Positions 5,080 through 35,311 of a stretch of 64,000 bases of DNA are shown one piece after another. The translations under genes were made by a program, and so were the position numbers. This DNA comes from Aquisediminimonas profunda (GTDB taxonomy: Bacteria > Pseudomonadota > Alphaproteobacteria > Sphingomonadales > Sphingomonadaceae), in assembly GCF_019443285.1 (NCBI RefSeq), contig NZ_CP080327.1, forward strand, positions 620,001 through 684,000, in the 5' to 3' direction. Positions within the stretch are counted from its first letter, which is position 1. Every line of letters begins with the position of its first letter. The notes below the pieces were generated by a model. The model worked only from the letters and a program-made list of their open reading frames with translations. It ran no database searches and was not told the DNA's origin.

Positions 5080-6819
<1,740 letters not shown>

Positions 6820-8208: not shown

Positions 8209-8275
8209 ACCGCGGGGCATCCACCGCTAAGGGCGTCCGCCTGCCACTCGGCCTTCGCGCCGAATCCGCATCGGT

Positions 8276-8352
8276 CGGGGAATAGCTCAGCCTGGTAGAG
8301 CACTGTCTTCGGGAGGCAGGGGCCGGAGGTTCGAATCCTCTTTCCCCGACCA
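8276..8352 (+). tRNA. tRNA-Pro (anticodon CGG)
   Basis: 77 bases fold as a canonical tRNA. The acceptor arm CGGGGAA pairs with TTCCCCG, and the D arm GCTC/GAGC encloses AGCCTGGTA. The anticodon stem CTGTC/GGCAG (one G-U) has loop TTCGGGA with anticodon CGG. The T arm GGAGG/CCTCT has loop TTCGAAT (one G-T pair). A discriminator A is followed by an encoded CCA. The anticodon CGG reads CCG proline codons. No integrase or duplicated 3' end was seen nearby. Confidence 0.97.
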
Positions 8353-8450
8353 GTTTTGCGGACGCCGGCAGGTGCAAGAACGCCTTACTTGGCATCGGCT
8401 TGCGCCACTAACATTCGATCAGGTGCATATCGAGTGCTGCTCAGCGGAAA

Positions 8451-11525: not shown

Positions 11526-11528
11526 CCG

Positions 11529-15912: not shown

Positions 15913-15924
15913 TCATTGGCCTTT
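15901..15924 (-). terminator. Candidate intrinsic terminator overlapping the stop of 15913-16698
   Basis: On the minus strand a 7-base stem AAAGGCC/GGCCTTT encloses a 10-base loop that contains the TGA stop codon of the methyltransferase gene, and is followed by TTTATT-type sequence (the stem's own T run plus ATT). This is a modest terminator by shape: a GC core of four pairs and a short, interrupted T tract. Confidence 0.4.
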
Positions 15925-17807: not shown

Positions 17808-19060
17808 GCTCTGTCTCCTAGTGCGGAAATTACCCGTTGATTCCCCTTTGAACGAGCCGCTTTACGGACAACATCCAAATATTCGGTTATGACGACATCT
17901 TCTTTCCAGTTTTTTTCAAAAGCGGTACGTGCCTCGCTAGCAAGAGAATCGCGCCTTGCCTTGTTATTTCCTAGCTCTGCGATCGCCGAGCGCAATTCTT
18001 CGGCATTTTCAAAAAGCACGCCGCCGCCCTTTGCTATAATTTCCGGAAACGGGCCAAGGCGCCGTGCAATGACAGGCGTGCCGCCTCGAAAGGCCTCAAT
18101 CAAAATGATCCCGAACGTTTCATAGCATAGCGACGGTACGATAAGTGCATTGGCGCTGCCGTACCAGGCCGCCAATGATTCAGGTTGCAACCGGCCCTTG
18201 AAGATGACCCGTTCCATGCCGGCCGCTTGCGCGCGCAGTCGCGCCTCATAGTCTCCCGCGCCAATGATCACGAGATCCGGTCCATCACCTGCGTTTCCGG
18301 AAAATGCCGGAATTATATCCTGCACGCCCTTGATCTGCTCCAATCGCCCGACAAACAGGAAGTAAGGCCTTGGGTGTGGTGAGGACGGCTTCGAAACAAT
18401 GGGCACGTCGGGCAGAAAGTAGGGCACGACTTCCATGTCCGGCAGGAAGCCAAAGGCACGATGCTTGTCCCGACTGAACTCACTTTTGGCTATGAAAGCA
18501 TCAATGTGACGGGTCGCGCGCGACAACATTCCCGTCCATCGCCACGGCTGAGGTGGACGGCGGTAGGCAAGCTGGCATCTGATACAGGCCTTTTTCTCAC
18601 ACACTTCACGCTTATTCTTCCAAAGCACGTGCGTGGGACAGACAAGCCAGTGCTCATGTGCCTCATAGAGTCTTACAGCGCCCGGATCCCCCAGCCCAAA
18701 CAGGCCCGGCCCGCCAACGAGCGACGCATTGTGATGCCAGATCACATCATAATTCCCCGGCGCAAGCAGCGATTTGAGACGACCGGCGTGGGTGACGGGT
18801 TGACCAAACTGATGGACCAACAGGTTTGAAACCGCCCCAAGATGCGACTTCAGTCCAATCGTCCTGATCCTCGGGTCCATATCAATCGGCGCGGGCACCT
18901 TCCCGGCCTGCGAGATATAGGCGTCCTCGTCATGCACAACCGTGATACTGTGGCCCCGATCCGCGAGAGCGACGGCAAGACGCTGGATGCCGATGCCGTC
19001 TCCCCCGAAATTGTACGGAGGGTAAAAGGTCGTCAGCATGGCGATGTTGAGTGCAGTCAT
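17804..19060 (-). CDS. Glycosyltransferase family 4
   Basis: 418 residues from the ATG at 19060. The GT-B N-terminal domain opens with MLTTFYPPYNFGGDGIG. The C-terminal nucleotide-sugar domain has PYFLFVGRLEQIKGVQDII near residue 230, SLCYETFGIILIEAFRGGTPVIA near 325 (the E-x7-E motif is ETFGIILIE) and a final helix. Longer starts up to 19123 would run into the sulfotransferase gene. It should add a sugar to the growing polysaccharide repeat in the cytosol. Four-base overlap with the epimerase gene downstream. Confidence 0.88.
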   Translation of the reverse strand: MTALNIAMLTTFYPPYNFGGDGIGIQRLAVALADRGHSITVVHDEDAYISQAGKVPAPIDMDPRIRTIGLKSHLGAVSNLLVHQFGQPVTHAGRLKSLLAPGNYDVIWHHNASLVGGPGLFGLGDPGAVRLYEAHEHWLVCPTHVLWKNKREVCEKKACIRCQLAYRRPPQPWRWTGMLSRATRHIDAFIAKSEFSRDKHRAFGFLPDMEVVPYFLPDVPIVSKPSSPHPRPYFLFVGRLEQIKGVQDIIPAFSGNAGDGPDLVIIGAGDYEARLRAQAAGMERVIFKGRLQPESLAAWYGSANALIVPSLCYETFGIILIEAFRGGTPVIARRLGPFPEIIAKGGGVLFENAEELRSAIAELGNNKARRDSLASEARTAFEKNWKEDVVITEYLDVVRKAARSKGNQRVISALGDRA

Positions 19061-19107
19061 GCTCTGCTGCCAAGATATTGGACGAAGATGGATGCAGCAA
19101 TCATGGC

Positions 19108-20010
19108 CTAATCCCTCAGCCAATGGGACAGGTCACGGTCGATCAGGTCTTGCAGTTGAAGGATGTCGTCTCGCAAAAGACCCTTCAGTCGCGCTCTCGC
19201 ATCTGCAGGCATATGATCGCGCGCGAGATTGCGTCGCGAAACCATATCGCGAATTTTCCGGCGTGCGCCCATAGGTACAATCAAGGCAGCAAGGGTGGCC
19301 AGAACATTGGGCCTCATGACAAGATGCTGAAGCCATGCATGACGGGGTTGGCCGCCCATATTGGTTTCAACGGTCACATTGGGCGCAAACGAGGCGTCGA
19401 CCCCGACGAACGCAAATATCTTGCGGAGCATCGCCTTTGGGTCATCGCGAAAATCCTCATAAAGGAAAACCAGAATCTGGTCGGCTGAAAATTCTGCGTA
19501 GTATCGCTTCAATTGCTTCGCATAGCGCGGAAAATCGGAATATTGGAACAAAGGCTGCCAGTGGGCAGCCAATCGCTCCGGCTCAGCCTCTAATGCAGCA
19601 CCAAAATCGTCCAGCGGTTCGATCATCTGTGCTCGGGCATAAAGGTAATGTGAGAAGGCCTGTTCGATCGGATTTCTGAGCACTGCAATCAATTTCACGT
19701 CAGGCAGACGCGCCTTTATGCGTTTCGCTGCCTGTGGCGCCCAAAGGTACAGAGGCGATGCTTCGCCTCTCGCTATGGCAGCGGGTGCCGTCTCGAAGAG
19801 CGAGACATAATCAGTCCAGTTTGAAATTGAATTGTTGACGAACTCATTGCCGGGGCCGCACCAATCCAGGGGTTCCCCCTCAAAAGCAAAAAAATTTGGC
19901 TCCTTGATCGTGCTCATCGCGATTTGCGGATGTTGCTGCAAAAGATCATAGAGCGCAGTAGTTCCAGCCCGCGCCGCGCCAACAATCAGGAAGGTCGGCG
20001 TTCCACCCAT
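19108..20010 (-). CDS. Sulfotransferase (PAPS-dependent family)
   Basis: 300 residues. The 5'-phosphosulfate loop is visible as GAARAGTTALYDLL (residues 11-24). The 3'-phosphate block is visible as KLIAVLRNPIEQAFSHYL near residue 110, with the Arg and Ser typical of PAPS sulfotransferases. The C-terminal LKGLLRDDILQLQDLIDRDLSHW is the helix common to bacterial polysaccharide and lipid sulfotransferases. It is likely to sulfate a sugar of this locus. It is transcribed away from the GMC-type oxidoreductase gene at 20097, with an 86-base divergent spacer. No PAPS synthesis genes are in the window. Confidence 0.88.
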   Translation of the reverse strand: MGGTPTFLIVGAARAGTTALYDLLQQHPQIAMSTIKEPNFFAFEGEPLDWCGPGNEFVNNSISNWTDYVSLFETAPAAIARGEASPLYLWAPQAAKRIKARLPDVKLIAVLRNPIEQAFSHYLYARAQMIEPLDDFGAALEAEPERLAAHWQPLFQYSDFPRYAKQLKRYYAEFSADQILVFLYEDFRDDPKAMLRKIFAFVGVDASFAPNVTVETNMGGQPRHAWLQHLVMRPNVLATLAALIVPMGARRKIRDMVSRRNLARDHMPADARARLKGLLRDDILQLQDLIDRDLSHWLRD

Positions 20011-21629: not shown

Positions 21630-21813
21630 ATCCGCAGTGCCTGCCCGCTTTATCTATCAACCACTTCAGGTCATGGTCGCGCCATCCGGCTTTACATTTC
21701 CGGTTTTTGAACCAGATTGATGCATAACCGCCTTGAATTGACGCGCCGCTCCAAAGTCAGGTTCGTGCGTGGGACCATTTCAGACTCGTTCATTTTTGGG
21801 GGACGCAAACGAT

Positions 21814-23697
21814 ATGTGCGGAATTTTTGGGGTCCAATACTTCTCGCAAGACAGGATTCCAAATGAAACGCTGCTGAGGCAATCAGTAGCCTTGCTTCAC
21901 CATCGCGGACCCGATGCACAGATTGTCAGTGCCATGCCGGGCCTTGGACTGGCCCATGCGCGCCTGTCCTTCCTGGATACGCATGAACGCAGTCACCAGC
22001 CCATGTGGGATTCGACGCGGCGCTTTGCCATTCTCTTCAATGGCGAAATTTACAACTTCAAGGAGATCCGACAGGAGCTGGAAAATAAGGGCCATCATTT
22101 TGTTACCAATTCAGACACTGAAGTTCTCCTTCAGGCCCTCATTGCATTTCCCCCCGAACAGATTTTGCGACGTCTCAATGGCATGTTCGGCCTTGCCTTT
22201 TTCGACACCCAACAAAGAACCATCCTTTTGGCGCGCGACCGCTTTGGGATGAAGCCGCTGTTTTTCCACGCGAGTGGTGAATTTTTCGCGGTGTCCTCTG
22301 AGGTGAAAGCGCTCGCACCCTGGGTTTCGCCGCGTCCCGACAAATTCATGCTGGCCTCGTATCTCCTGAAGTTTGGCGGGCCTACCAAGGGGCAGAGTTT
22401 TTATCAGGACGTGGATTCTCTTGCGCCGGGAGAAATGATGAAAGTCTCGGCGTCAGGGCATATCGAACGAGAGCCGTTCTTCCAGCTGACAGATTTTATC
22501 GATGAAGATTACGGAACTGCTCTCGCCGCCATGTCGAAGAACCAAACCGTAGATGAAATGGACCGGCTGCTCACGGAGAGCGTCAACAGCCACATGTTTG
22601 CGGATGTCCCGGTTGGGGCGTTCTGCAGTGGGGGTGTCGATTCGTCGCTGCTGATGGCCAAGGCTGCTGTGCGCTATCAGAATCTGGCAATATTTCACGC
22701 GAACGTGAAGGGCCAGTGGAGCGAACATCACGCCGCGGTCGAACTTGCGGACCATCTCAAACTGGATTTGATTTCAGTTGACGTTGTCGATCAGGATTTT
22801 GTCGACCTTCTCCCTCGTGTGATGAAGCATTACGAATATCCCTTTACCTATCACCCCAACTGCGCACCCTTGATGATGGTGGCCTGCCTCGCCAGGGACA
22901 ATGGTGTCAAAGGGCTCTTGTCGGGTGAGGGGTCGGACGAGTGCTTTCTAGGCTATCCCTGGCTTGGCCGCCGTTCCATTACGGAGCGCTATGAACGCTT
23001 GGTCGCACGAACGCGCGGCATCGTTCACAGGATTCCTGAGTTCGGGCAGATCTTGTGGCCGGATGAGGATAATAATGTGGGTCCCGCACGCGCCCTGTTA
23101 AACCGGTTCGAGATTGAGGATGACATTGCCCTGGTACAGTCCAGCCGGATTCTGCCCAGCGGAAAAACTCTGCCGCCGCAGAGTTTATGGACGCTTGAAT
23201 ATCTCCATCATCATTTGCGGACGTTACTTCACAGGAATGACACAATGGGCATGGCAGCGAGCATAGAGGCCCGCTTCCCCTTCCTCGATCTTGATGTTGT
23301 TCGTATGGCGGTCAACCTTGATCCCAAATACAAGTTGCGCTTCTCGCACCGCGCTCTCGACAAGGCCCACCCATTCATCCAGGACAAGTGGATTGTGCGT
23401 GAAGTTGCAGCGCGTTATCTGCCGCGCTCTCTTAGTCATCGCAAGAAACTTGGGTTCTGGACGACTGTCTTCAAGAGAATCGACATTGATCCGCGATATT
23501 TTGATCAATCGTTCGCGCGAGACATCTTCCGCCTTTCGACGGCGCAATTTGACAGCCTGTTGAGTCAGGGAGGAAATGATCTTGCAGTAAGATTGCTCCA
23601 CATCGATGTGTGGGGCGAAACGTGTTTTCAAGACAAAGATGAAGATGCGGCAATTTCGAAACTGCGCCAGTACGTCTCAATTCGGCCAGAGCGATAG
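21814..23697 (+). CDS. asnB: Glutamine-dependent amidotransferase of the asparagine synthase family
   Basis: 627 residues. The ATG at 21814 is chosen because Cys2 (MCGIFG) must become the N-terminal nucleophile of the class II glutaminase domain; GGGGGAC lies about ten bases upstream. The glutaminase domain covers about 2-190 (HHRGPDAQ, LSFLDTHERSHQPM, FNGEIYN). The synthase domain has the ATP pyrophosphate loop SGGVDSS at 272-278, and LSGEGSDECFLGYPW near residue 370. It either makes asparagine or, as with similar genes in O-antigen loci, amidates a uronic acid. The nearby UDP-sugar 6-dehydrogenase favours the latter. Confidence 0.9.
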   Translation: MCGIFGVQYFSQDRIPNETLLRQSVALLHHRGPDAQIVSAMPGLGLAHARLSFLDTHERSHQPMWDSTRRFAILFNGEIYNFKEIRQELENKGHHFVTNSDTEVLLQALIAFPPEQILRRLNGMFGLAFFDTQQRTILLARDRFGMKPLFFHASGEFFAVSSEVKALAPWVSPRPDKFMLASYLLKFGGPTKGQSFYQDVDSLAPGEMMKVSASGHIEREPFFQLTDFIDEDYGTALAAMSKNQTVDEMDRLLTESVNSHMFADVPVGAFCSGGVDSSLLMAKAAVRYQNLAIFHANVKGQWSEHHAAVELADHLKLDLISVDVVDQDFVDLLPRVMKHYEYPFTYHPNCAPLMMVACLARDNGVKGLLSGEGSDECFLGYPWLGRRSITERYERLVARTRGIVHRIPEFGQILWPDEDNNVGPARALLNRFEIEDDIALVQSSRILPSGKTLPPQSLWTLEYLHHHLRTLLHRNDTMGMAASIEARFPFLDLDVVRMAVNLDPKYKLRFSHRALDKAHPFIQDKWIVREVAARYLPRSLSHRKKLGFWTTVFKRIDIDPRYFDQSFARDIFRLSTAQFDSLLSQGGNDLAVRLLHIDVWGETCFQDKDEDAAISKLRQYVSIRPER

Positions 23698-23731: not shown

Positions 23732-24799
23732 CTAACTCTTTTGCCATCTGACTTTCAAATAGGCACAGGTACGCCTCAGCCCCTCTTCGGCACCGATTTC
23801 AGGCACAAAAAGCTGCGACTGCATCTTGTCGGTCCGGGCAACCCCCTTGGAGCGAAAGAGCAAGGGGCTCTCGCTCGCCGGCTGCCAAATGCGACGTCCC
23901 GGTTGCATGGCGACAATGCGCGTTCGGATCTGTTGCAACCGTGACGAGCCAACAAGGCTGGCAGCCTTCGCGCCCGCCCGTCTCGTCAGCCTGGAAAATA
24001 GGGAAGGGCGAGCGAGCGAGTGCATGGAAGTGATAGAGAAAGGCTCCGCTGGTTGCCGCTCCACCCGGGCACCGCATGCCTGAGCATAGGCACAGAGCAT
24101 TTGGTTCCAGGGAAATGGCTGGGGACCGGAAATAATGTAACGCTCTGCACTACCAAGCGGCAGCTCTGCCGCTGCTATGAAGCTTTCGACCGCATCGTCA
24201 ATGTAGATACCATTGCAAAGGCCATCATCGACATCGGGCAGGACCAATGTGCCGCCAGCCATCCTTTCAGCGAGCGCCAACGTCCATTGTGGCGATCCCG
24301 GGCCATACACAATTGTGGGTTGCAGGATCACGGCATCGAATTGGCCTGCAGCCACTCGTCTTTCCAGATCCTTTTCCATTGCGCGCTTGGCAATCTTGTA
24401 GTCATGCCCGGGCCCGTCGCACGGAGAGGCCTCTGTGACATCCCGGATCGGCCAATCGTCGTAAACTGCGATCGTGCTCGCCTGCACCAGCTTTGACACT
24501 CCGGCAGACACGCAGATGTTTGCAAACGCATGATAAAGATCGATATTTTCTTGTGCGTCTCGCCTGAGATCATAGGCAAGGTTGAAGGCGATGCCGAACC
24601 CAGGTAGCGCCGCTCCGATCTTGTCGGGAGCAGCAAAGTAAATCCCGGGTTCAGTCCTTCCTTGCCTTGAGCGGTCGCGGGTTGTTGCGATGACCTGCGC
24701 CCCAAGTTCAGCCAAGCGCCGGGTCAATGCCGAGCCAATAAAGCCCGTTCCGCCGGTTACCAGAACATTGCGGCCATTCCAGTTCTGCCGCTTGCTCAT
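23732..24799 (-). CDS. NAD-dependent epimerase/dehydratase (SDR)
   Basis: 355 residues. NVLVTGGTGFIGSAL occurs at about 10-24, an atypical second motif near residue 80, LVQASTIAVYDDW at about 104-116 (catalytic Ser or Thr), Tyr-x3-Lys as YKIAK at about 133-137, and LQPTIVYGPGSPQW near 155. Extended SDR acting on a nucleotide sugar; product unknown. The ATG at 24799 overlaps the stop of the upstream GT4 gene (ATGA). It is the last gene of the long minus-strand run that begins at 35311, and it converges on the amidotransferase gene with a 34-base gap. Confidence 0.85.
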   Translation of the reverse strand: MSKRQNWNGRNVLVTGGTGFIGSALTRRLAELGAQVIATTRDRSRQGRTEPGIYFAAPDKIGAALPGFGIAFNLAYDLRRDAQENIDLYHAFANICVSAGVSKLVQASTIAVYDDWPIRDVTEASPCDGPGHDYKIAKRAMEKDLERRVAAGQFDAVILQPTIVYGPGSPQWTLALAERMAGGTLVLPDVDDGLCNGIYIDDAVESFIAAAELPLGSAERYIISGPQPFPWNQMLCAYAQACGARVERQPAEPFSITSMHSLARPSLFSRLTRRAGAKAASLVGSSRLQQIRTRIVAMQPGRRIWQPASESPLLFRSKGVARTDKMQSQLFVPEIGAEEGLRRTCAYLKVRWQKS

Positions 24800-25914
24800 T
24801 TCCGGCCGAGCCATTGCTCATAAAGCCTCTCAAAAGAGTCTTGAACATGACGCGGAGAGAAACGCTCGTCTTCGGAGCGCTTGAGGGCCGCTTCCGACAT
24901 GTGCTGCAAGCGCTGCTTGTCTGACGTGAGGAAAAGGAGACTCGATGCCATTGCTTCGATGTCGCCAATGTGCACTACAGCTCCCACATCTTCCGTCACC
25001 AACTCGCTGACACCCGCCGTATCCGTTGCAAGAACGGGAGTTGCTTGCTGAAAGGCCTCAACAATCGTGATCGGAAGCGATTCCCAGCGCGACGGCAGGA
25101 AGAACAGGTCCGCAGCGGCCATATAAAGTGACGCATTCTCGCTATGGCCAACGAAGCGCACAGATCCGCCCACCCCGGCCTCATCGAGCCATTCTTTGAC
25201 CAGATCGCGCTGGGGACCATCGCCCACGACCACGAAACGCAAGGCGGGATTAGTGGCGAGCGCCAATTTTGCCGCAGCAATCAAATGATCGATGCCCTTT
25301 TGATGTGCGAGGCGCGCGACAGTAACGACGAGTGTCTTGCCGTCGTTCCCGAGCAATTCCCTGCGCAAGGATTCCACATCCGGGATTGCGGGTCGCGGCC
25401 GTTTGTGGACCCCGAGGCCCATGACAACAACCTTGTCCTTCGGGACCCCGCCATCAGCGGCAAGATCACATGCGCTGTTGTAGCTGGGCGTGATAACAAG
25501 GTCTGCTGTGAGCCGCGCTATACGCCCGAATTCGGTAATACGCTCCGGCTCCGCGCCATGAAAAGTGACCAGGACCGGAAGCCCCAGACCACGAGTTGCC
25601 AACCAGGCAACCAATGCCGGGGCACTTTCATGCGCATGGACGAGTTCGATCCGCTCTTTGACAAGAGTCCGGCGCAACGAAATGCCGCCTTTGATAGCGT
25701 TCAGCAGGCGCAATAGTGTTGGGCCACCGGCCTTTGTGACCTTGAAGATATCAATGTGCGTGAAAAGCGGATCGACTGTCTCATTCATCCATGCGCCGCG
25801 CGTACCTGCATATGCGACATGGTGACCTCGCTCGCGAATCCCGCTTCCCAGGTCAAGGACATGACGCTGGATACCACCTGCCGGAAAATCCGTGCAAAGC
25901 TGAAGAATACGCAT
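24796..25914 (-). CDS. Glycosyltransferase family 4
   Basis: 372 residues, GT-B fold. The N-terminus is LQLCTDFPAGGIQRHVLDLG, a common GT4 opening. The acceptor domain holds VHAHESAPALVAWLA. The donor domain holds VVTVARLAHQKGIDHLI near residue 195 and SRWESLPITIVEAFQQATPVLA near residue 285, with the E-x7-E motif as ESLPITIVE. Likely transfers a hexose, deoxyhexose or uronic acid in the cytosol. Nine bases separate it from the UDP-sugar dehydrogenase gene upstream; four-base overlap with the SDR gene downstream. Confidence 0.9.
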   Translation of the reverse strand: MRILQLCTDFPAGGIQRHVLDLGSGIRERGHHVAYAGTRGAWMNETVDPLFTHIDIFKVTKAGGPTLLRLLNAIKGGISLRRTLVKERIELVHAHESAPALVAWLATRGLGLPVLVTFHGAEPERITEFGRIARLTADLVITPSYNSACDLAADGGVPKDKVVVMGLGVHKRPRPAIPDVESLRRELLGNDGKTLVVTVARLAHQKGIDHLIAAAKLALATNPALRFVVVGDGPQRDLVKEWLDEAGVGGSVRFVGHSENASLYMAAADLFFLPSRWESLPITIVEAFQQATPVLATDTAGVSELVTEDVGAVVHIGDIEAMASSLLFLTSDKQRLQHMSEAALKRSEDERFSPRHVQDSFERLYEQWLGRK

Positions 25915-25923
25915 CAGAACAAA

Positions 25924-27261
25924 TTACGCCTTTACTGCCTGCGGCGCCGTGATGCCGCGCTTGGCGAGTGCGTTGCGCGTGTCGACAATCAGCCTGGCGT
26001 GCTCCGCAACAACGGCATAGTCGACTGCTGCATGATCAGTGGCTATCAGCACCGCATCATAGTCAGCGATGGTCTTGCCATCGAGCGCAATAGAGCCCCG
26101 ACCAGAGAGATTCGCATGCTCACGAGTCTGTGGCACCTTTGGAATATGCGGATCATGGAAGTCGCAATGAGCACCTTGCGCCTCTATCAGCTCGATCAAG
26201 GTCAGGGATGGGCTTTCCCGCAGGTCATCGACGTCGGATTTGTAAGCAAGGCCCAAAACAAGAATTTTTGCGCCTCTTAGCCCTTTGCCGATTTGCGAAT
26301 TCAGGGCCCGAGACAGCTCACTCACGACATGGCGTGGCATTGCAGTATTGATTTGTCCCGCAAGTTCTATGAAGCGGCTCTCAATTCCAAATTCGCGCGC
26401 CTTCCATGTAAGGTAGAAGGGATCGATAGGAATGCAGTGCCCTCCCAGGCCGGGACCCGGGTAAAAGGCCTGAAAGCCGAAGGGCTTTGTCGCAGCAGCT
26501 GCGATCACTTCCCACACGTCTATCCCCATCTCCGAGTAAACCAGCTTCAATTCGTTGACGAGTGCAATGTTGACTGCGCGAAAAATGTTCTCGGTCAGCT
26601 TCGCTGCTTCTGCCACAGCTGCACTGTTGACTGGCACAACCTTGGCGACTGTCTTGCCATAGAATGTTTCCGCGAGCTTGCGAGATTTCGGGTCGTCAGC
26701 ACCAACCAACTTCGGGATTGTGTGCGTGTTGAAGTTTTTGTTGCCCGGATCTTCTCGCTCGGGCGAAAATCCGAGGAAAAGGGTTTCGCCCACGATACCG
26801 CCTGCCGCTTCCAGGATCGGCTGAACCACCTCACTGGTCGTGCCGGGCCAAGTCGTGGATTCCAGCATCACGAGTTGGCCGGGGCGCAAAGTCTTGGCAA
26901 TCATCTGCGCAGTCGAAACAACATACGAAAGATCGGGATCCCGGTTTCGGGTGAGAGGGGTTGGCACGCAAATCGCAAGTACGTCAGGTTCCGCCAGCCG
27001 AGCAAAATCGGTCGTGGCTTCGAATTGGCCTGCCGCAATGGCATCCCGCATTTCCGCCGGGTCGAGATAGGAGATAACCTGCTCGCCTGCATTGATGGCT
27101 TCAACTCGTCCTTGGCTGACATCGAAGCCGACAACCTTGTATCCTGCCTTTACCCCTGCGAGCGCAAGCGGGAGACCAACATAGCCCAATCCGACAACGC
27201 CGATTGTGGCGGTGGCATCCTCGAGGCGAGAGAGCGTTTGCAAATAATAATCGGAGGACAT
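25924..27261 (-). CDS. Nucleotide-sugar 6-dehydrogenase (WbpA/WbpO/TviB type)
   Basis: 445 residues. IGVVGLGYVGLPLALA (NAD-binding) lies at about 19-34, VPTPL near residue 102, TTWPGTTSEVVQPIL at about 144, and FSPEREDPGNKN at about 174. The catalytic cysteine is Cys276 in GLGGHCIPIDP. The GGHCIPIDPFYL form points to the WbpA/WbpO branch, which oxidises UDP-GlcNAc or UDP-GalNAc to the uronic acid, rather than the plain UDP-glucose dehydrogenase. The operon also carries an SDR and, next door, a glutamine amidotransferase, which fits synthesis of an amidated uronic acid (inference). Confidence 0.9.
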   Translation of the reverse strand: MSSDYYLQTLSRLEDATATIGVVGLGYVGLPLALAGVKAGYKVVGFDVSQGRVEAINAGEQVISYLDPAEMRDAIAAGQFEATTDFARLAEPDVLAICVPTPLTRNRDPDLSYVVSTAQMIAKTLRPGQLVMLESTTWPGTTSEVVQPILEAAGGIVGETLFLGFSPEREDPGNKNFNTHTIPKLVGADDPKSRKLAETFYGKTVAKVVPVNSAAVAEAAKLTENIFRAVNIALVNELKLVYSEMGIDVWEVIAAAATKPFGFQAFYPGPGLGGHCIPIDPFYLTWKAREFGIESRFIELAGQINTAMPRHVVSELSRALNSQIGKGLRGAKILVLGLAYKSDVDDLRESPSLTLIELIEAQGAHCDFHDPHIPKVPQTREHANLSGRGSIALDGKTIADYDAVLIATDHAAVDYAVVAEHARLIVDTRNALAKRGITAPQAVKA

Positions 27262-27267: not shown

Positions 27268-28782
27268 TCAGGGTTCCCGGAATCTGGCGCCATCTGGCGC
27301 ACTGCAGTTTATAGGCTGGTTGGCATCGGCAGGCTGCCCGCCATGGCCAAAGATATAGAGTTCGGCGACAACATCGCGATCAAAGGCAAGAGCGAGGATG
27401 GCGAAAACGGCCAGGCCTGTTCCCATCGTCGCCCAAAAGCCAAACGGCGAGTAAGGAGCAGAGAGTGCTATCACCGCCGCAGCGATTATTGCAGGCAACG
27501 CCGGCAGAATGGGCACCTCATAGCCGTGTTTGTGGACATAGACTTGGGACACCAGCCACACGACAAGACAGGCCAACGACATGGAAATTGCAGCCCCTGC
27601 TGCACCATAGCCAGCGGGGCCGATCAGCAACCACGCCAACGGGATTGCGACCAACACGCCACAAATTTGCGACACAAGCATATCGTTCCCGCGCTTCCCG
27701 GCGATCAACATCCAGCGGGCGTGGCCCGAGAGAAGGGTAAGGGGAAAGGTCCAGACAAGGAGCGAAAAGGGGACTGCTGCCTTGCCAAAGCCAGGCCCGA
27801 AAAGAGCCCTCAGCAAGGGTTCCGCCGCCAGCGTCAACGCCAAAGCTATGCCGATGCCGATCCACGCTGTAGCCCGGATTGATGTTCGGGTTAGTCGTGC
27901 GAGGGCCTGTGGATCCGTTTGAAGGCGACGGGAGATGATTGGATAGAGGTTGAAGTGGTAGAGCCAGCTAAAGGTTACAAGTGAAATGCCCAAACGGTGC
28001 GCAGCCCCGAAATAAGCTGTATCCGTCATACCCGCCATCGCAGCAAGGATGAGCAGCGGCGCATATTGGAACATTGCCCAGCAGATTGCCCCTAACCCGA
28101 TTGGCGCGCTCTCCCGCATCAAGTCAAACAGCTTGTGGAGCGCAAAACGGAGCCGCAGTCTCGCAATGCCGCGATGTTGAACGGTCATCAAATAACAAGT
28201 CGCGCAAAGTACAGAGGCAATCTCGGCCGCCCCCACGATCAGCACACTGGCATCATCACGCACAAGCACGAAACAGACCACCATGAAGGTGAGCACACGC
28301 AAGCTTTGCGCCAGAACAACATGCTTGATCAGGCCATTTGCCTGAAAAAGCCAGTCCTGCTTCCAGGGAAGAATGAACAGGCTGAGGGCGATCAACCCGG
28401 TCAAACCCAAAGCGTTTGCGTCGTTCGCATAGAACCAGGTGAACAAAATCATCGCAGGCGCAATAACCAAGGCAAGACAAAGCTGGAGTGCCGGGATGAG
28501 TGCAACAAGCTCATCTGCACTCTGATGCCCCTGCGTCAGGCGGCGAACACCGACTGAACCCATACCACCGTCAATGGCCAAGCTCGCCAACGTGGCGAGG
28601 CCCATTGCATATTCGACAGCACCATAATCCTGAGGCAGCAACCTGCGCGACAGGATTGCAAAGGCCATAAATGCAACACCCTTGGTGCCGATCTGGCCGA
28701 CCCAGAGCAAACCCAGATCGCGCGCCAGCTTGAACTGCGGCCGGACAATGGCTCGGCCAATCTGTCCGAATGTGCGGGTCAT
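27268..28782 (-). CDS. Wzx-like oligosaccharide flippase (MOP superfamily)
   Basis: 504 residues with about twelve to fourteen hydrophobic segments. The N-terminal pattern GTKGVAFMAFAILSRRLLP followed by DYGAVEYAMGLATL is the first-helices signature of the Wzx/RfbX family. It should flip an undecaprenyl-diphosphate-linked repeat unit to the periplasmic face. One of three such flippases in the window. Its start overlaps the GT39 stop by four bases, and its stop is six bases from the dehydrogenase start, so it is part of the 23732-35311 minus-strand run. Confidence 0.87.
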   Translation of the reverse strand: MTRTFGQIGRAIVRPQFKLARDLGLLWVGQIGTKGVAFMAFAILSRRLLPQDYGAVEYAMGLATLASLAIDGGMGSVGVRRLTQGHQSADELVALIPALQLCLALVIAPAMILFTWFYANDANALGLTGLIALSLFILPWKQDWLFQANGLIKHVVLAQSLRVLTFMVVCFVLVRDDASVLIVGAAEIASVLCATCYLMTVQHRGIARLRLRFALHKLFDLMRESAPIGLGAICWAMFQYAPLLILAAMAGMTDTAYFGAAHRLGISLVTFSWLYHFNLYPIISRRLQTDPQALARLTRTSIRATAWIGIGIALALTLAAEPLLRALFGPGFGKAAVPFSLLVWTFPLTLLSGHARWMLIAGKRGNDMLVSQICGVLVAIPLAWLLIGPAGYGAAGAAISMSLACLVVWLVSQVYVHKHGYEVPILPALPAIIAAAVIALSAPYSPFGFWATMGTGLAVFAILALAFDRDVVAELYIFGHGGQPADANQPINCSAPDGARFREP

Positions 28783-30302
28783 CGGCGACTGCCATCCTTC
28801 GAAGCCTGCAACCAGACCTGCCCGTCTCCGAGAGTTCCCCTGAACGTCCTTACGCTTGCGAAATGTGCAGCGAGTTCCGCTTTGACGTCAGGTCGAGACG
28901 TAAGTGTCTGGTGCGGAAAGGCGACAATGACCCATGTCCGGCCAGGTGTAGCCGCGCGTAAAGCTTCCAGTTCTGCGGCATTGTCAATCACCCTGAAGTC
29001 TTGCGCATAATAGCGGCTGTAAGCGTATCCTGCGAGACCGACAGCGGCGATACTGTCTCCCGGTCTGGCCAGATCTCTTACGGAATTTCGGGCGCCAACG
29101 AAGTCTTGCTTCGGATACAGATAATTCGGGACAAGCAGGCCGATTGATACCAGCAACATCGCCAAGAACCCGACGAGCGAAAGTGCTTGTGCGTCAATCA
29201 GCGGCTTGTCTCCCTTGCGCAGGAAACGCGAAATCCATCCGCTCCAGACAACCACGCCCTCGACCATCGCCATAAAGATAAAGCCAAGGTCTACGAAGAA
29301 ATAACGCGGCCAAATTCGGACGCCGACAACATCGAGCAAAAGCATGGCTAGGGGCACATGCACCACGTAAATGGCTACAAGGAGAGGCGACTTGCGATAG
29401 AGGGCGAAGGCTCCTGCAGAAAGTACCATCAGCGCAGCGAGCAGGATAACTGGCACGAGCGGGCCCGCTGACGAAATCGATCGTCCTATCTCCACGACGG
29501 CTCGCATCGGATTCAGCCATTCCGCCAAAGCGGCGCCCCCCGCGGCCGCAGAGGCTTGCGAAACCTCCTGCACTGTGGCGAAGGCCTGACCGATGATCGG
29601 CGCATACAGGACAAGCGTGACGACAATGCTCAAGCTGATGCCAAAAATCGGCCAAAATCCCGCCAAGCCCGGCCATTGTTGTGTGATCTGAACTTTCCTC
29701 GCTCCCCCTGTGAGCCTGGAAGCCAACAGAGCACCATAGACCGCGCCATGAGCGGCAAAGAAAAAGCCCGCTGACATATGAACATACATGGCTGCCGCAA
29801 CGAGCAGGGCATAGACAACCCAATTCCGCCAGTCAGGCTTTTCCATACCCTTGATGAAGGCGAGCGTCGCAGCCGAACAAAAGAAGAGTAGGCCGGTGTA
29901 GCCGCGCGCATTCTGCGAAAACCATACATGGTGGTAGGAAAATGCCAGCAGAAGCGCCACCATCAGCGCGCCACGCGCGCCCATAAGTCGGCGGGTAATC
30001 AGCCATTGCATCCAGATGCTGGCGACACCCATGATGATTGCTGGCAACCGCAGAGCCAGTGCTGTCTCTCCCAAGGCGCCGATGCTCAGCTGTGCCATAA
30101 GGCTGTACAGCATGTGATTATTGAGAGAGTCCAAGGTCCCAATGAGCTTCAGCGTTGGAAGCCGCACGAAATTCACCAATGTGACGATTTCGTCATACCA
30201 AAGTGATGCGTCAGCCTTGAATAGCCGCAGACCAAGAGCAAGCAAGAGAACCAACACCAAGGCTCCATACTCTCGTCTGTCTATTGGTCTGGTTTGATGC
30301 AT
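28779..30302 (-). CDS. GT39-family membrane glycosyltransferase (PMT/ArnT-like)
   Basis: 507 residues, about eleven transmembrane segments. The first periplasmic loop has SLWYDEIVT near residue 33, the acidic pair that defines the GT-C/GT39 catalytic loop. SYHHVWFSQNARGYTGLLFF (about 121-140) is the second conserved block. GT39 enzymes take a sugar from a polyprenyl-phosphate carrier and transfer it on the periplasmic side. The GT2 gene at 34367 encodes a plausible maker of that carrier-linked sugar. The next gene upstream is 94 bases away. Confidence 0.87.
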   Translation of the reverse strand: MHQTRPIDRREYGALVLVLLLALGLRLFKADASLWYDEIVTLVNFVRLPTLKLIGTLDSLNNHMLYSLMAQLSIGALGETALALRLPAIIMGVASIWMQWLITRRLMGARGALMVALLLAFSYHHVWFSQNARGYTGLLFFCSAATLAFIKGMEKPDWRNWVVYALLVAAAMYVHMSAGFFFAAHGAVYGALLASRLTGGARKVQITQQWPGLAGFWPIFGISLSIVVTLVLYAPIIGQAFATVQEVSQASAAAGGAALAEWLNPMRAVVEIGRSISSAGPLVPVILLAALMVLSAGAFALYRKSPLLVAIYVVHVPLAMLLLDVVGVRIWPRYFFVDLGFIFMAMVEGVVVWSGWISRFLRKGDKPLIDAQALSLVGFLAMLLVSIGLLVPNYLYPKQDFVGARNSVRDLARPGDSIAAVGLAGYAYSRYYAQDFRVIDNAAELEALRAATPGRTWVIVAFPHQTLTSRPDVKAELAAHFASVRTFRGTLGDGQVWLQASKDGSRR

Positions 30303-30396: not shown

Positions 30397-31107
30397 CTAT
30401 TTGATCGCAAGGAATCCTTCGAAACAGATATATTTCGAAATCGTCGTCACGTCCTGGAAACCCGCTCGGCGGAACAGGTCAAAATTGCCGGCAGTGGAGA
30501 AGGGTTCAAGAATGCCCTTGAGGCTGCGCGTCTTGCCGACGATTTCCTTTTCGTCGAAGCCCTGTGAGAGTTTGAATTCGTTATAAAGCCCGGTCGCGAT
30601 ATCCTGGAAACGGGCATCAGGTGCACGCACTTTTTCGAACATGATGAACGCGCCGCCCCAGTTCAAGGCCTCATAGATGCGATCGAAAAGAGCTTGCCGA
30701 TCACGGGGCGGAATGAATTGCATCGTGTAATAGGAAACGATCAGATCCGCCTTTTCGAACGGGTAGAGCCGGGCATCCTCATCCAGGATCGTGATATTGG
30801 GCACATCAGCGCAGTGCGCTCTGGCCTTAGCCGTCATGGCTTCTTCAACATCCATTCCGACAAATTTTGCGCCGGGCTTGTGGGCATTGTGCAGCGCCAG
30901 TTTCTTGAGCAGTTCCCCGGTCGAAACGCCGATTTCATAAACCGTGCTGCGATCAGAGACGAACCAGTCGCTGATCTGGCAGGTCAAATCATGGCCTTCG
31001 ACATAAAGCGGGACAGAATGCCGGATGTGATCCACGAATGTGTCCGGTACATTGCCGCCGAAGTTCCATGCGGCATTTCCCGTTTCGATATTCTGCCCGA
31101 CCTTCAT
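30397..31107 (-). CDS. CmoA-like SAM-dependent enzyme (carboxy-SAM synthase fold)
   Basis: 236 residues from the ATG at 31107 (GAGGGGG about 8 bases upstream; the in-frame extension to 31212 looks non-coding). Domain order follows tRNA-pathway CmoA (about 247 residues): AWNFGGNVPDTF then RHSVPLY at about 13-35, VYEIGVSTGELL at 56-67, VSYYTMQFIPPRDRQALFD, LNWGGAFIMFEK, FKLSQGFDEKEI, then RRAGFQDVTTISKYICFEGF at the end. It is not a plain type-11 methyltransferase. CmoA converts SAM and prephenate to carboxy-SAM. In this operon a role in sugar or carrier modification is inferred. The Arg that holds the carboxylate in CmoA appears shifted by one residue (KTRS here). Confidence 0.75.
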   Translation of the reverse strand: MKVGQNIETGNAAWNFGGNVPDTFVDHIRHSVPLYVEGHDLTCQISDWFVSDRSTVYEIGVSTGELLKKLALHNAHKPGAKFVGMDVEEAMTAKARAHCADVPNITILDEDARLYPFEKADLIVSYYTMQFIPPRDRQALFDRIYEALNWGGAFIMFEKVRAPDARFQDIATGLYNEFKLSQGFDEKEIVGKTRSLKGILEPFSTAGNFDLFRRAGFQDVTTISKYICFEGFLAIK

Positions 31108-31218
31108 CGAATTTACCCCCTCTTGCAGGCGAATGCCTTTATCAGCTTGTGATGCTGCTTGGGAATTGGGATTCAACCTTAACGCAGCAACCTTGAGTTC
31201 CGTCTTTTCCATTCCCGT

Positions 31219-31965
31219 TCAGCCATGTGAACCTCCTGCCATTTCCCGGACCGCACGGAGTCCCTGGCGCATCCTGAAATAGCCGCGATGACCGTTGAGA
31301 AAGCGGCTCCAGGTTCGGCGGTTACGGAAATAGTGCATCTCGATCCGCGGCAGGTCCACGGCATCATCGTCGCGTTGCGCAATGGCCAGCCGGGTGCCGA
31401 AGGCAACTCGGTAGTGCTTCCGGATCGATTCAAGGACTGCGGGAGAGACCCGTCCGTAGGGGGCGGCAAAGCCTTCGACCGGCTTGCCAAGCTGTTCGGA
31501 GAGATCGGCGGCACTCCCGGCAATTTCGTCCTCGCGCGCTGCCGGATCGAGCCGTGTCAGGTCGGCATGCGTCCGGCTATGCCCGCCGAATTCCATACCT
31601 TCATCCGCAAGCCTGCGGACTGTATCCCACTCCATCAGCGGCCTTGCCGGGCGATTGGCGCCGTCCCAGGCTTCGGGATGGCCGAGCCTGCGCGTCGGCA
31701 CGAACACAAGCCCGGAAAAGCCATGCCGCTGCAAGACGGGAGCGGCAACATCCGCGAAATCGGCAAAGGCATCATCAAATGTGATCAGCACACGACGTTC
31801 ATTGCCGTCATTCGCCTGCCCTGCGTGCCAGTCGATAAATTCTCCCAGTGTCTGGCTGCGGTACCCTGCGGCGGCAAGGGCGTCCATGTGCATGCCAAAG
31901 ACGGACGGCGGTATGCTCGTCGGACCGCCGCTGTCGGATATCGAATGATAGGTCAGGACGAGCAT
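31219..31965 (-). CDS. Polysaccharide deacetylase (NodB/CE4 family)
   Basis: 248 residues. CE4 motifs are in order: LTYHSI at 4-9, ITFDDAF near residue 60 (metal-binding Asp), GGHSRTHADL near 127 (metal-binding His-x3-His), and GFAAPYGRVS near 163 (catalytic Arg loop). No signal peptide or membrane helix is seen, so it probably acts in the cytosol or on a membrane-bound intermediate by removing an N- or O-acetyl group. Nine bases separate its start from the stop of the FAD protein gene, so they are probably co-transcribed. Confidence 0.9.
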   Translation of the reverse strand: MLVLTYHSISDSGGPTSIPPSVFGMHMDALAAAGYRSQTLGEFIDWHAGQANDGNERRVLITFDDAFADFADVAAPVLQRHGFSGLVFVPTRRLGHPEAWDGANRPARPLMEWDTVRRLADEGMEFGGHSRTHADLTRLDPAAREDEIAGSAADLSEQLGKPVEGFAAPYGRVSPAVLESIRKHYRVAFGTRLAIAQRDDDAVDLPRIEMHYFRNRRTWSRFLNGHRGYFRMRQGLRAVREMAGGSHG

Positions 31966-31974
31966 GTCTGCCTC

Positions 31975-33393
31975 TTAATCCTCGACCACATGGGTTTCGA
32001 AAATCCGACGATAGTCATGCCACTTTGCAAGATCAAAACTGCCATCTGCATTCAGGCAATCGACCGCGCCATGCGCTGTGGCCAGGGCGTGATGCGTATT
32101 GTCATGCGCGAACAGGCCCTGCCGACCAAAGGTGAGCAGTCCGTCGATACTCTCGACCCAGCGATCCATCACGGCAAGATCGCTTTCGAAATTGCGGTCA
32201 TAAACGGGATAGGCGTAGCCGAGCCGATGCGTGACGGTCCGCCGGACCTTTGCCGTGACCGGGAGGCCAACGCCCGCCAGCCATTCGCAAAGCTTGGCGC
32301 CCAGTTCGTTATCCGACAGCGCCCACAGGGGCTCGTGTGGATCGCAGGGCAGTTCGGCACACAGCACTGTAACGCCCTTTGGCTCTGTGCTGGCCGAGTA
32401 ATTTTTGGGCTCTGACAAGCGGGAAATGGGCACGGCATATTCGGGGAAATAATGCGCGTCATACTCGGTGAATTGCTGCTGTTCGAGGACAAGGTAGATA
32501 AGGATCATGCCACGAAACCGGATCCGGGACGCTGCCTCGGCGATAGGAGGAGGGGCAGGCGGGTCCATGAAGGACACGAGGCTCGTGATCGGAAGGCTGG
32601 ACCAGATCTTGTCGGTCTCGATTCGCGTCTCGGTTTCGCCCTTGCGGAACCGCACCGCCTTTACCTTGCCGTCCGCATGCTCGATGGCCGTAACCGATGC
32701 GTCGAGCAGGAATTCGGCCCCATGCGCTTCAGCCTTTGTTCGCAGGGCATCGCAGATCTGGCCAAAGCCTTTTTTCGGAAAGAAAAAGCCGCCTGTCTGG
32801 GGCTTCTTGAAACCCGGGACCTGCCCGAGGATCTTGCGCACGATCTTCCCGATGGAGCTACCGGAAACCCGCCGCGTGGCGAGTGTGACCGCCAACTCTT
32901 CGGGGGGAAGTGCCCAGAGCTTGCGCATATAGGGATAGTAGAAATTCTCGCTCATCGCCGGTCCAAGCCCCTGATAGAGCACGCTGGCGAATGTAGGCTC
33001 GCCCGCTGGCGCACGGCGGAACGGCTTTGTCGCCGCATCCCAAAGCAGCTGCGCCGTAAACCCCTTGGGTAACCGCAGCAGGAGGTCGACGGGCTTCAAG
33101 GGAAAATGGATCCAGCGTCCCTTGAGCCGGATGCGACCATGGCGCGGCCGCCAGAGCAGGTCGGGGCCAACCGCATCCTGGATCATGGCAAGGATATGGG
33201 GTTCGCTTGCGGGATGGAGCCTGTGGCTCCCGAAATCGCAGTGAATGCCTTCAAGGACAAAGCTGCCGGAATTGCCACCGACCCGCGGCGCCCGTTCAAG
33301 CACCTTGACGGACGCCTTGCCGCTCTTGGCCAGCATCAACCCCGCCCCGACCCCGGCAGGTCCAGCGCCAAGAACCACTACCTGCTGCATCAA
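31975..33393 (-). CDS. FAD-dependent oxidoreductase, protoporphyrinogen-oxidase/UDP-galactopyranose-mutase-like
   Basis: 472 residues. The N-terminal dinucleotide fold is VVVLGAGPAGVGAGLMLA with the second motif ERAPRVGGNSGS, typical of flavin amine oxidase / protoporphyrinogen oxidase and UDP-galactopyranose mutase relatives. FGSHRLHPASEPHI follows. The C-terminal FGRQGLFAHDNTHHALATAH resembles the FAD-closing segment of mutases and oxidases. Substrate unknown; a sugar or carrier-lipid oxidation or isomerisation is inferred from context. It overlaps the upstream flippase-like gene by four bases (ATGA). Confidence 0.82.
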   Translation of the reverse strand: MMQQVVVLGAGPAGVGAGLMLAKSGKASVKVLERAPRVGGNSGSFVLEGIHCDFGSHRLHPASEPHILAMIQDAVGPDLLWRPRHGRIRLKGRWIHFPLKPVDLLLRLPKGFTAQLLWDAATKPFRRAPAGEPTFASVLYQGLGPAMSENFYYPYMRKLWALPPEELAVTLATRRVSGSSIGKIVRKILGQVPGFKKPQTGGFFFPKKGFGQICDALRTKAEAHGAEFLLDASVTAIEHADGKVKAVRFRKGETETRIETDKIWSSLPITSLVSFMDPPAPPPIAEAASRIRFRGMILIYLVLEQQQFTEYDAHYFPEYAVPISRLSEPKNYSASTEPKGVTVLCAELPCDPHEPLWALSDNELGAKLCEWLAGVGLPVTAKVRRTVTHRLGYAYPVYDRNFESDLAVMDRWVESIDGLLTFGRQGLFAHDNTHHALATAHGAVDCLNADGSFDLAKWHDYRRIFETHVVED

Positions 33394-34370
33394 TTAAGCT
33401 CCATTGCCACTTTTTCGCGTTCGGGACGGCGCACCTGCACCAGAAACCCGATGGCTCCACTTGCATAAAGGACTGACTGCCAGATGAGGCCGACCGCGAT
33501 GACCTGGCCGGGATCCGCTCCAAACGGCTTCAGCAGCCCGGCCATGCTGGCCTCCCGCACGCCAAGGCCGCCCAGGCTGATCGGCGCAATCGCAATGATC
33601 TTTGCTGTCGTCCAGGCAAAGAACCAAGCCGAAACCGGGGCCTCGACATGCGCTGCCTGCGCAAAAGCGATGTTGATGCCGACAAACAGACACTGCACAG
33701 CCATGGAAATCGCGAGACATGCCAGAAGGCGCCCGGGGCTGCGGGAAAGCTCGGCGGCCGCATGAATCATGGAACCGAGGATGCGGGCGACCTTGCCCGA
33801 TGCTGCGCGGCGCGCCATCGACCGGTCGAGGAATGGCGCAGCGGCAAAGCCCGTTGCGACCACTAGCGCCAACGCGACAAGTGCCCAGCGCAACTGCGTT
33901 GCCTCATAAAGCCTGGGTCCCCAGGCATAGGTGGCGCCGACAAGAGCGATCAAGGCAAGCCCCAGCGTGTCCAGAAGGCGGTCTGCAATCGATCCCATCG
34001 CGAGCTTGCCCTTGTCGTTCGCCTGCCCGAACACCAGCCCAGCGCGAACGACATCGCCTCCGGCCACTCCGGGCAGGGCAAGGTTTGCGGCCAGCCCGGC
34101 AAGGTGGGCCCGAAAGGCAGAGCGATAGGATATTCCGGAACCAATGAGCATACGCCATTTGAACGCTGCGGCGGCATGGCCAGCAACGAAAAGGCCCAAT
34201 GCCGCAAGCCAAAGTCCGGGCGAAAACTGGCGCGCTGCAGCCCAGACCGTTTCAAACGGCACGAAGTGGAAGATCAGCGCCAGCATCGCGGCACTGACGC
34301 AACTTCGGACAATCCAGACGCTCGGGATCTTTCGCCTGCCCGCCTTCCCGGAAGCGGAATGCTCGTTCAC
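33390..34370 (-). CDS. LPG-synthase-transmembrane/UPF0104-type membrane protein (PF03706)
   Basis: 326 residues from a GTG start at 34370 that overlaps the stop of the GT2 gene (GTGA). Seven or eight hydrophobic segments. The family blocks GHAAAAFKWRMLI near residue 60 and LALPGVAGGDVVRAGLVF near 95, plus SLGGLGVREASMAG near residue 265, are clear. Related proteins are the membrane domain of MprF, AglD, and putative lipid-linked-sugar flippases. Sitting directly after a polyprenyl-phosphate glycosyltransferase, it is a good candidate to translocate the polyprenyl-phosphate sugar (inference). Confidence 0.87.
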   Translation of the reverse strand: MNEHSASGKAGRRKIPSVWIVRSCVSAAMLALIFHFVPFETVWAAARQFSPGLWLAALGLFVAGHAAAAFKWRMLIGSGISYRSAFRAHLAGLAANLALPGVAGGDVVRAGLVFGQANDKGKLAMGSIADRLLDTLGLALIALVGATYAWGPRLYEATQLRWALVALALVVATGFAAAPFLDRSMARRAASGKVARILGSMIHAAAELSRSPGRLLACLAISMAVQCLFVGINIAFAQAAHVEAPVSAWFFAWTTAKIIAIAPISLGGLGVREASMAGLLKPFGADPGQVIAVGLIWQSVLYASGAIGFLVQVRRPEREKVAMELN

Positions 34371-35311
34371 TTGGCGGCAATATCTGCGCGAGATCGCAGG
34401 TTCAGGCGCGAAATCATGTCGGCTATCAGGCCAAGGGCCCAAAGCAGAACAGCCCCCAGAAGCCCGAGAACCGCAGTTTCCGAGAGATTGTCGATGTAGA
34501 CGTCATAGACTGCCTTGACGAAGCCCAGCACAAAAAGCGCCAGGCCAGCCGGAAGATAGACTCTCAATGGCTGGAAATAGACCGTCAGGCGAAAGACGAG
34601 GAACATGAAGCGACCGAAATCCGTTGCGCGAATCTTGGATTGTCCCACGCGCTTCCCATAGACAATCGGCAGGTAAGACACGCGCATTCCCGATGCCAGC
34701 ATGCACAGTGTTACAGTGGTCGTGAATGAAAAGGCATCCGGCAGCAACGGTACAAAGCGCTCCAGTGGTTCGCGCCTGAACACTCTCAGACCCGAATTGA
34801 GATCACTGATCTCATGTTGGGCAAGCAGGCTGGCCAATTTGTTGAGTGTCCATTTTGCGGGACGCCGTATCAGCGGCACGCCTTTCATGGCGGCACCGCG
34901 ATCGCCGACGACCATATCGTTATAGGTCGCCATTGCGATCATCTCGGGCAGGTATGACGCCGGATATGTTCCGTCCGCGTCGAGAATGGCAACGAGTGGC
35001 CCTGTGCTGACTGCGATGCCCGCCTTCAGTGCGCGACCATAGCCGCCATTGTGCGGAAAATTGACCACGTGAACACCCGTCGCGCGGGCGCGCTCAAGGG
35101 TATCGTCGGTGGAGCCATCATTGACGACAATGATTTCGTGCGAAATGCCTGCCGCATCCAGAACTTCGCGAACCGATGCGATCGTCGCCGCAACGGCGCC
35201 TTCTTCATTATAGGCCGGGATGACGATTGAAACGGCTGGCGTCGCAGCCTTCTGCTTCTTCATAGTGGTGGATGCCCCCGCAACCGCCACCAATTCCAAC
35301 TGTTCAGCCAA
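34367..35311 (-). CDS. Family 2 glycosyltransferase, polyprenyl-phosphate-sugar synthase type
   Basis: 314 residues from a TTG start at 35311, with GGGGG seven bases upstream. The GT-A domain has SIVIPAYNEEGAVAATI near residue 30, ATGVHVVNFPHNGGYGRALK, and LDADGTYPAS, whose DAD is the metal-binding motif. Two C-terminal hydrophobic segments (about 235-260 and 270-290) follow, as in DPM1/GtrB-type enzymes, which load a sugar onto polyprenyl phosphate at the inner face of the membrane. A consensus-like promoter lies just upstream. First gene of the minus-strand run to 23732. Confidence 0.9.
   Translation of the reverse strand: MAEQLELVAVAGASTTMKKQKAATPAVSIVIPAYNEEGAVAATIASVREVLDAAGISHEIIVVNDGSTDDTLERARATGVHVVNFPHNGGYGRALKAGIAVSTGPLVAILDADGTYPASYLPEMIAMATYNDMVVGDRGAAMKGVPLIRRPAKWTLNKLASLLAQHEISDLNSGLRVFRREPLERFVPLLPDAFSFTTTVTLCMLASGMRVSYLPIVYGKRVGQSKIRATDFGRFMFLVFRLTVYFQPLRVYLPAGLALFVLGFVKAVYDVYIDNLSETAVLGLLGAVLLWALGLIADMISRLNLRSRADIAAK

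Follow-up and report, generated by a model that had tools for sequence, protein, structure and literature searches.

The protein encoded by a CmoA-like gene in a polysaccharide cluster of Aquisediminimonas profunda joins the TglE clade of carboxy-SAM (Cx-SAM) synthases as a new member. The best explanation of its setting, which we hold with a little more confidence than doubt, is that this synthase feeds a class I methyltransferase encoded in the same cluster (15913-16698), which would carboxymethylate a sugar that is either lipid-linked or exported. Support for the synthase step is strong, and we infer the partner and the acceptor.

The synthase gene and its neighbourhood

The window analyzed here is a 64-kb stretch of A. 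profunda DNA, to which all coordinates refer unless another locus is named. Its CmoA-like gene lies on the minus strand at 30397-31107 and has 236 codons in an intact frame. The ATG at 31107 fits the conserved family start M-x-VG-x-x-I, and the longest frame opens at an upstream in-frame ATG (31212), which adds 35 residues to give 271 aa. A large polysaccharide region spans 14111-55680, and a sulfotransferase (19108), a GMC-like oxidoreductase (20097) and an AsnB-like protein (21769) are also encoded in it. The features of the cluster are as follows, with the type of evidence in brackets.

30397..31107 (-): CmoA-like Cx-SAM synthase, TglE clade, 236 aa (profile, PDB, tree, fold, alignment)
31219..31965 (-): polysaccharide deacetylase, core module (profiles, locus comparison)
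31975..33393 (-): FAD-dependent amine-oxidase / UDP-galactopyranose-mutase-like protein, core module (profiles, locus comparison)
33390..34442 (-): LPG_synthase_TM flippase-like membrane protein, core module (profiles, locus comparison)
34367..35311 (-): GT2 glycosyltransferase, polyprenyl-phosphate-sugar synthase type (AglJ/ArnC-like), core module (profiles, locus comparison)
28779..30302 (-): PMT_2 (GT39/GT-C type) glycosyltransferase, directly downstream of the synthase (profiles)
27268..28782 (-): Wzx-type polysaccharide flippase (profiles)
25924..27261 (-): putative nucleotide-sugar (UDP-glucose/GDP-mannose type) dehydrogenase (sequence reading; similar genes in 9 loci)
24796..25914 (-): GT4 glycosyltransferase (profiles)
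17804..19123 (-): GT4 glycosyltransferase, 44-49% identical to one adjoining the synthase in related loci (profile, locus comparison)
16797..17807 (-): NAD-dependent sugar epimerase/dehydratase (profile)
21769..23697 (+): asparagine-synthase-like amidotransferase (profile)

The original prediction described a CmoA-like protein matching along almost its full length and placed between a polysaccharide deacetylase and a GT39 gene. Pfam profiles confirmed both neighbours, at 31219-31965 and 28779-30302 (PMT_2/GT-C). The top NCBIfam match was the CmoA model TIGR00740 (E 9.6e-38, 130 bits), which covers residues 13-236 and thus nearly the whole protein. A second CmoA model gave 98 bits and other methyltransferase models at most 30 bits. 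The profile comparison proposed at the outset therefore puts CmoA first and general methyltransferase models far lower, though the score stays below the TIGR00740 equivalog cut-off (193.3 bits). Pfam recognized only general methyltransferase domains. Sequence matches in the PDB were the YecO/CmoA entries 1im8, 4gek and 4iwn (E 1e-26 to 9e-29), and the same chains were the nearest structures to the AlphaFold2 model (pLDDT 89.7; TM 0.81-0.90, and 0.87-0.90 against 4gek).

The synthase, deacetylase, FAD protein, LPG_synthase_TM and GT2 genes form a five-gene block (30397-35311) that recurs in many genera. The GT2 protein scored 103 bits with the AglJ model and 62 bits with the ArnC model (cut-off 529), both below cut-off.

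A sister clade of canonical CmoA that includes TglE

Scanning one genome per species yielded 59 relatives of the synthase (47-86% identity) from Alphaproteobacteria, Pseudomonas, Gemmatimonadota, Spirochaetota, cyanobacteria, Planctomycetota, Bacteroidota and others. In a tree of 70 proteins these relatives group as a 59-row clade with 99/99 support, distinct from canonical CmoA (99/95) and from the phage CmoAs; the window synthase lies inside a 29-row subclade of mostly polysaccharide-type members (100/99). Alignment revealed 24 residues that E. coli CmoA and three phage/plasmid CmoAs have in common with 90% or more of the clade members. Among 46 genomes examined, a canonical CmoA above cut-off was also present only in five Pseudomonas and Pseudobacteriovorax.

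In Pseudomonas, the clade gene stands first in a cluster that also encodes a Methyltransf_23 protein at the TglF position, an M50 protease, an MbnB/TglH-family DUF692 enzyme and, at the PEARL (TglB) position, a protein of 814 aa. This is the layout described for tgl, in which TglE and TglF perform carboxymethylation (PMC9016710, PMC10880893, PMC10491745), so the Pseudomonas member is identified as TglE. These two enzymes put the carboxymethyl group on the tgl thiol (PMC9016710), and TglE is described as a Cx-SAM maker (PMC10491745).

Two further loci place the clade gene between cmoB and trhO: L047 (the cyanobacterium Halothece, 8962-11511; CmoB 458 bits, TrhO 326 bits) and L056 (a marine proteobacterium, 3694-6493; 399 and 281 bits), with all matches above the cut-offs (275 bits for CmoB, 170 bits for TrhO). 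TrhO is a tRNA uridine hydroxylase. Given this placement, the clade member appears to stand in for CmoA in tRNA modification in both genomes.

By the tree, the clade is a well-supported sister of canonical CmoA that includes TglE of the Pseudomonas tgl clusters, and it is best read as comprising genuine Cx-SAM synthases. Judged from these sequence relationships, the window protein is very probably a Cx-SAM synthase itself. It had been suggested alternatively that the protein might have become a new transferase; this is disfavoured, since the clade adjoins cmoB and trhO in two genomes and sits in tgl clusters.

A near-invariant basic residue at position 203 (E. coli numbering)

In E. coli CmoA, Arg199 contacts the Cx-SAM carboxylate (PMC4482062). 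This residue is not present in the window synthase, which has Thr at E. coli position 199 and Arg at position 200, within the following stretch.

30517..30534 (-): codons K192-T-R-S-L-K197, replacing the E. coli K198-R199 region; K197 corresponds to E. coli position 203 (alignment)

Across the 59 sequences, position 199 holds T, S, A or N, with one K. Position 200 is basic (R/K) in 52 of the 59 relatives, and position 203, which is Glu in E. coli and Lys197 in the window protein, is Lys in 58. Canonical Pseudomonas CmoAs show R199/E203. The CmoA of phage S-B43, biochemically verified as a Cx-SAM maker (PMC12783734), aligns with E199/R203, and other phage and plasmid CmoA homologues likewise lack R199 and carry R203. 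As the verified phage synthase also lacks R199 and a basic residue is nearly invariant at position 203, the loss of R199 is not the key change. The basic group appears to have moved by one helical turn to Lys197, which would then hold the carboxylate. R200 was considered for this part and rejected: seven of the 59 relatives lack a basic residue at this site, and 203 is where the phage CmoAs stay basic. The proposal that the carboxylate-holding Arg was displaced by one residue (KTRS) was thus right about the Thr at 199 and the Arg at 200, but the basic residue that compensates is at 203, not 200. So corrected, the sequence rule is that R199 can be replaced by a basic residue at position 203 of the E. 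coli numbering.

A methyltransferase that accompanies the polysaccharide-type synthase

The candidate partner is encoded about 14 kb from the synthase in the window and was the sole methyltransferase recognized among the profiled cluster genes.

15913..16698 (-): class I methyltransferase, 261 aa, proposed carboxymethyltransferase partner (profiles, co-occurrence, tree, motifs)

By whole-genome searches, all 26 genomes with a polysaccharide (EPS)-type synthase, two Gemmatimonadota among them, have exactly one homologue (48-85% identity), and the 20 genomes whose synthase has another context have none. Where both genes lay on one contig (21 genomes), they were 1.2-30 kb apart. All 27 synthase-associated partner proteins fall in one clade (100/99), which shows the motif TQTxQMI where other family members usually have TQTLHxI. 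The loop after strand 5 carries an invariant R183-R184 and D-x-W-G/A-E-Y-W, compared with PGITP...WYWS in the others. The methyl group and the acceptor of class I methyltransferases usually sit after strands 4 and 5; it is after these strands that the clade-specific motifs fall, and they are mostly absent from other family members. Residues in these clade-specific motifs are candidate carboxylate binders. The divergent motif I of the partner (GDPSY) counts against its assignment. The predicted model is weak (pLDDT 72), and its fold match is to generic class I only, at low confidence.

Among the 298 genomes of the window's order, the synthase was found in this one only, and partner-family homologues without a synthase occurred in 11 of the 297 others (38-47% identity). 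The FAD gene, like the synthase, was found in this genome alone of the 298, so that genomes of this order give no power to tell the synthase-partner pair apart from the remaining module. One MAG in the class sample (G653, 86% complete) has the GT2/LPG_synthase/FAD core on a contig without synthase, partner or deacetylase, and neither synthase nor partner was found anywhere in this 86% complete assembly. The co-occurrence of synthase and partner may come partly from inheritance of the whole cluster.

The five-gene block is closest to Polymorphobacter (synthase 85-86%, deacetylase 59%, FAD protein 81%, LPG_synthase_TM 67-68%, GT2 79-81% identity), and the closest kin of the Wzx protein (78%), the GT-C enzyme (67%) and the partner (82-85%) are in Sphingobium; the partner shares only about 51% with its Polymorphobacter homologue. 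By these identities, the cluster is mosaic, with Polymorphobacter-like blocks and Sphingobium-like ones, and the synthase-partner pairing is still kept. We consider it likely that the 15913-16698 protein uses the Cx-SAM of the synthase. As far as our searches of the open-access literature show, the pairing of a TglE-clade synthase with a polysaccharide-cluster methyltransferase is undescribed.

The asparagine-synthase-like protein (21769-23697) was also considered, as a constant third component similar to CmoY, and was rejected for this cluster, with a close homologue in only 3 of the 26 genomes.

Methyltransferases beside the synthase in other loci

Genes around the 59 loci were predicted with a simple gene caller and grouped into families. 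Methyltransferases made up at least 14 of the 33 genes immediately next to the synthase in 17 dereplicated loci, versus about 7 of 66 genes more than 2.5 kb away (Fisher p about 5e-4); these approximate counts draw on Pfam tallies as well as on proteins identified one by one.

Outside the polysaccharide setting, unrelated methyltransferases adjoin the synthase, and the families differ between loci. TglF-type methyltransferases adjoin the synthase in Pseudomonas and Scalindua (L048), and another Methyltransf_23 family does so in Chelatococcus, Methylopila, L049 and L064. Nonulosonate (NeuB/PseF-like) clusters carry a Methyltransf_23 family of their own beside the synthase in L046, L058 and L059 (around 8200-12540); synthase and Methyltransf_23 also occur within NeuB/PseF-type clusters in L055 and L061. 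These loci suggest carboxymethylated sialic-acid-like sugars. In L031 and L054 the neighbour is a TIGR04371 putative sugar O-methyltransferase (103 and 113 bits; cut-off 44), and in L057 a carnosine-methyltransferase-like protein. Leptospiraceae-type genomes (L033, 10001-11604; L034, L037 and L039) have a gene for an LmtA/PEMT-like membrane protein directly after the synthase. LmtA is a lipid A 1-phosphate methyltransferase with a PEMT fold.

Synthase, methyltransferase and asparagine-synthase-like genes occur together in L048 (10001-13510), L051 and L052 (around 10001-13800) and L061 (10716-12563), as in phage CmoA-CmoX-CmoY; by this analogy, the carboxymethyl group may be amidated in loci of this type. 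A Burkholderia stagnalis plasmid (L067, 6084-11944) encodes a DUF692 enzyme, a TglE-clade synthase (64%), an 867-aa protein with a C-terminal methyltransferase domain and a radical SAM protein, which is a probable new peptide-modifying cluster. CmoA homologues adjoin cytosine-5 methyltransferases in a Staphylococcus phage (L068, 2980-4679) and a Paenibacillus plasmid (L069, 5013-9293), resembling a CmoA/CmoX-like pair outside cyanophages.

We regard as evenly balanced the broader proposition that carboxymethylation of lipid-linked or surface sugars from Cx-SAM, with a TglE-clade synthase as its source and a clade-specific methyltransferase as its user, is a new widespread glycan modification, and that the mobile synthase has teamed up with no fewer than six different transferase families (CmoB, TglF type, the EPS-cluster methyltransferase, NanM-type, the nonulosonate-cluster Methyltransf_23 and PEMT/LmtA-like).

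Proposed pathway and alternative explanations

As its family suggests, the synthase would convert SAM and prephenate to Cx-SAM and phenylpyruvate. The 15913-16698 methyltransferase would then move the carboxymethyl group to a hydroxyl of a sugar, or else to an amine that the deacetylase has uncovered. The GT2 enzyme probably assembles this sugar on polyprenyl phosphate, after which the deacetylase would trim it, the LPG_synthase_TM or Wzx protein flip it and the GT-C enzyme transfer it; this putative order follows the logic of the Arn (Und-P-Ara4N) route. The idea that the gene makes carboxy-SAM for a carboxymethylated sugar is the best-supported reading, given the cmoB and trhO neighbours, the tgl clusters and the constant methyltransferase clade in a polysaccharide setting, although its sugar acceptor is only inferred. 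We think that the acceptor is probably a glycan. No natural carboxymethyl sugar derived from Cx-SAM was found in the open-access literature searched.

Several other explanations were weighed. A Cx-SAM synthase could stand beside an ordinary SAM-dependent sugar O-methyltransferase at 15913-16698, with another enzyme, in or outside the cluster, taking the Cx-SAM. The partner family is broad, 11 further genomes of the order have it without a synthase, and co-occurrence alone cannot assign a reaction to modules that are inherited together. We nevertheless consider this unlikely, as no second methyltransferase was recognized among the profiled cluster genes, the partner is kept at exactly one copy in 26 of 26 genomes, and its clade is separate, supported and marked by its own conserved residues. 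It is quite improbable that the CmoA fold was turned into a plain SAM-dependent sugar methyltransferase. Such a change would fit the score below the CmoA cut-off, the replaced R199 and the polysaccharide context; however, the verified phage synthase also lacks R199, the basic residue at 203 is kept, members of the same clade apparently replace CmoA beside cmoB/trhO and act as TglE in tgl clusters, and the second methyltransferase that is nearly always alongside would be redundant.

Very little weight falls on a small-molecule or peptide product of the tgl kind, with an incidental polysaccharide location. Relatives in Pseudomonas and Burkholderia do sit in peptide-modifying clusters with DUF692 enzymes, but neither TglA, TglB (PEARL) and TglH (DUF692) genes nor a radical SAM gene were recognized among the profiled polysaccharide-cluster genes, and the five-gene block with its GT2, flippase-like protein and deacetylase recurs across many genera. 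That the Cx-SAM serves tRNA cmo5U in this genome is extremely improbable. The 3.4-Mb genome is a single contig rated 100% complete. A whole-genome search found no second CmoA-like gene and no CmoB, with the best TIGR00452 matches at 33 bits against a cut-off of 275; the canonical cmo5U pair is therefore missing, and a tRNA role for the synthase here was rejected on the lack of CmoB. The gene also lies within a polysaccharide cluster, like its closest relatives. The original prediction had counted against a special role the case of a sole cmoA with cmoB adjacent in relatives. The gene is indeed the only cmoA-like one and cmoB, with trhO, adjoins it in two distant relatives, but the genome itself is without cmoB, and its adjacency in relatives points to the chemistry of a Cx-SAM synthase, not to tRNA modification in A. 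profunda.

Comparison with known systems

The closest known system is TglE/TglF of the Pseudomonas 3-thiaglutamate pathway, which shares with the window pair the synthase clade (55-58% identity), the K[T/S]RSLKG motif and an adjacent partner methyltransferase. It differs in being a peptide-scaffold pathway with TglA/B/H/I and a thiol acceptor, and TglF is a Methyltransf_23 protein with a Cys-rich N-terminus outside the 15913-16698 family. E. coli CmoA, which acts with CmoB in tRNA cmo5U formation, resembles the window synthase in fold (TM 0.87-0.90), in 29% identity over nearly the full length and in the 24 conserved residues, but belongs to a separate clade; the window protein scores below the TIGR00740 cut-off, is without R199 and comes from a genome without CmoB.

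In Synechococcus phage S-B43, SpCmoA/CmoX/CmoY combine a recruited CmoA homologue with a dedicated carboxymethyltransferase, and the E199/R203 pattern of SpCmoA indicates that R199 is not needed. There the modification is of DNA cytosine and the partner is a C5-methyltransferase; the phage CmoA is only distantly related to the window synthase, and the phage relative S-CRM01 is 34% identical. MccS/MccB of a Bacillus microcin C-like system join a CmoA homologue to an unrelated Cx-SAM-specific transferase (PMC10491745). Their product is a peptidyl-cytidylate antibiotic, and the likeness to the window pair comes from the literature description, not from sequence. ArnC/ArnD/ArnT share with the cluster a GT2 acting on polyprenyl phosphate, a deacetylase-fold enzyme, a flippase and a GT-C transferase. 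This is a likeness of logic only, as the window GT2 reaches 62 bits with the ArnC model (cut-off 529) and no Ara4N genes were identified.

Implications

The findings suggest that surface sugars of some bacteria receive carboxymethyl groups; no report of such a role for Cx-SAM was found. The known uses are in tRNA, a peptide-derived amino acid, a microcin and phage DNA, and a glycan would be the fifth substrate class. If true, this would be a charge-adding sugar modification that glycan analysis could overlook, and carboxymethylation of sugars, of sialic-acid-like sugars and possibly of lipid A would be natural chemistries. The loci described here give a ready list of synthase/transferase pairs.
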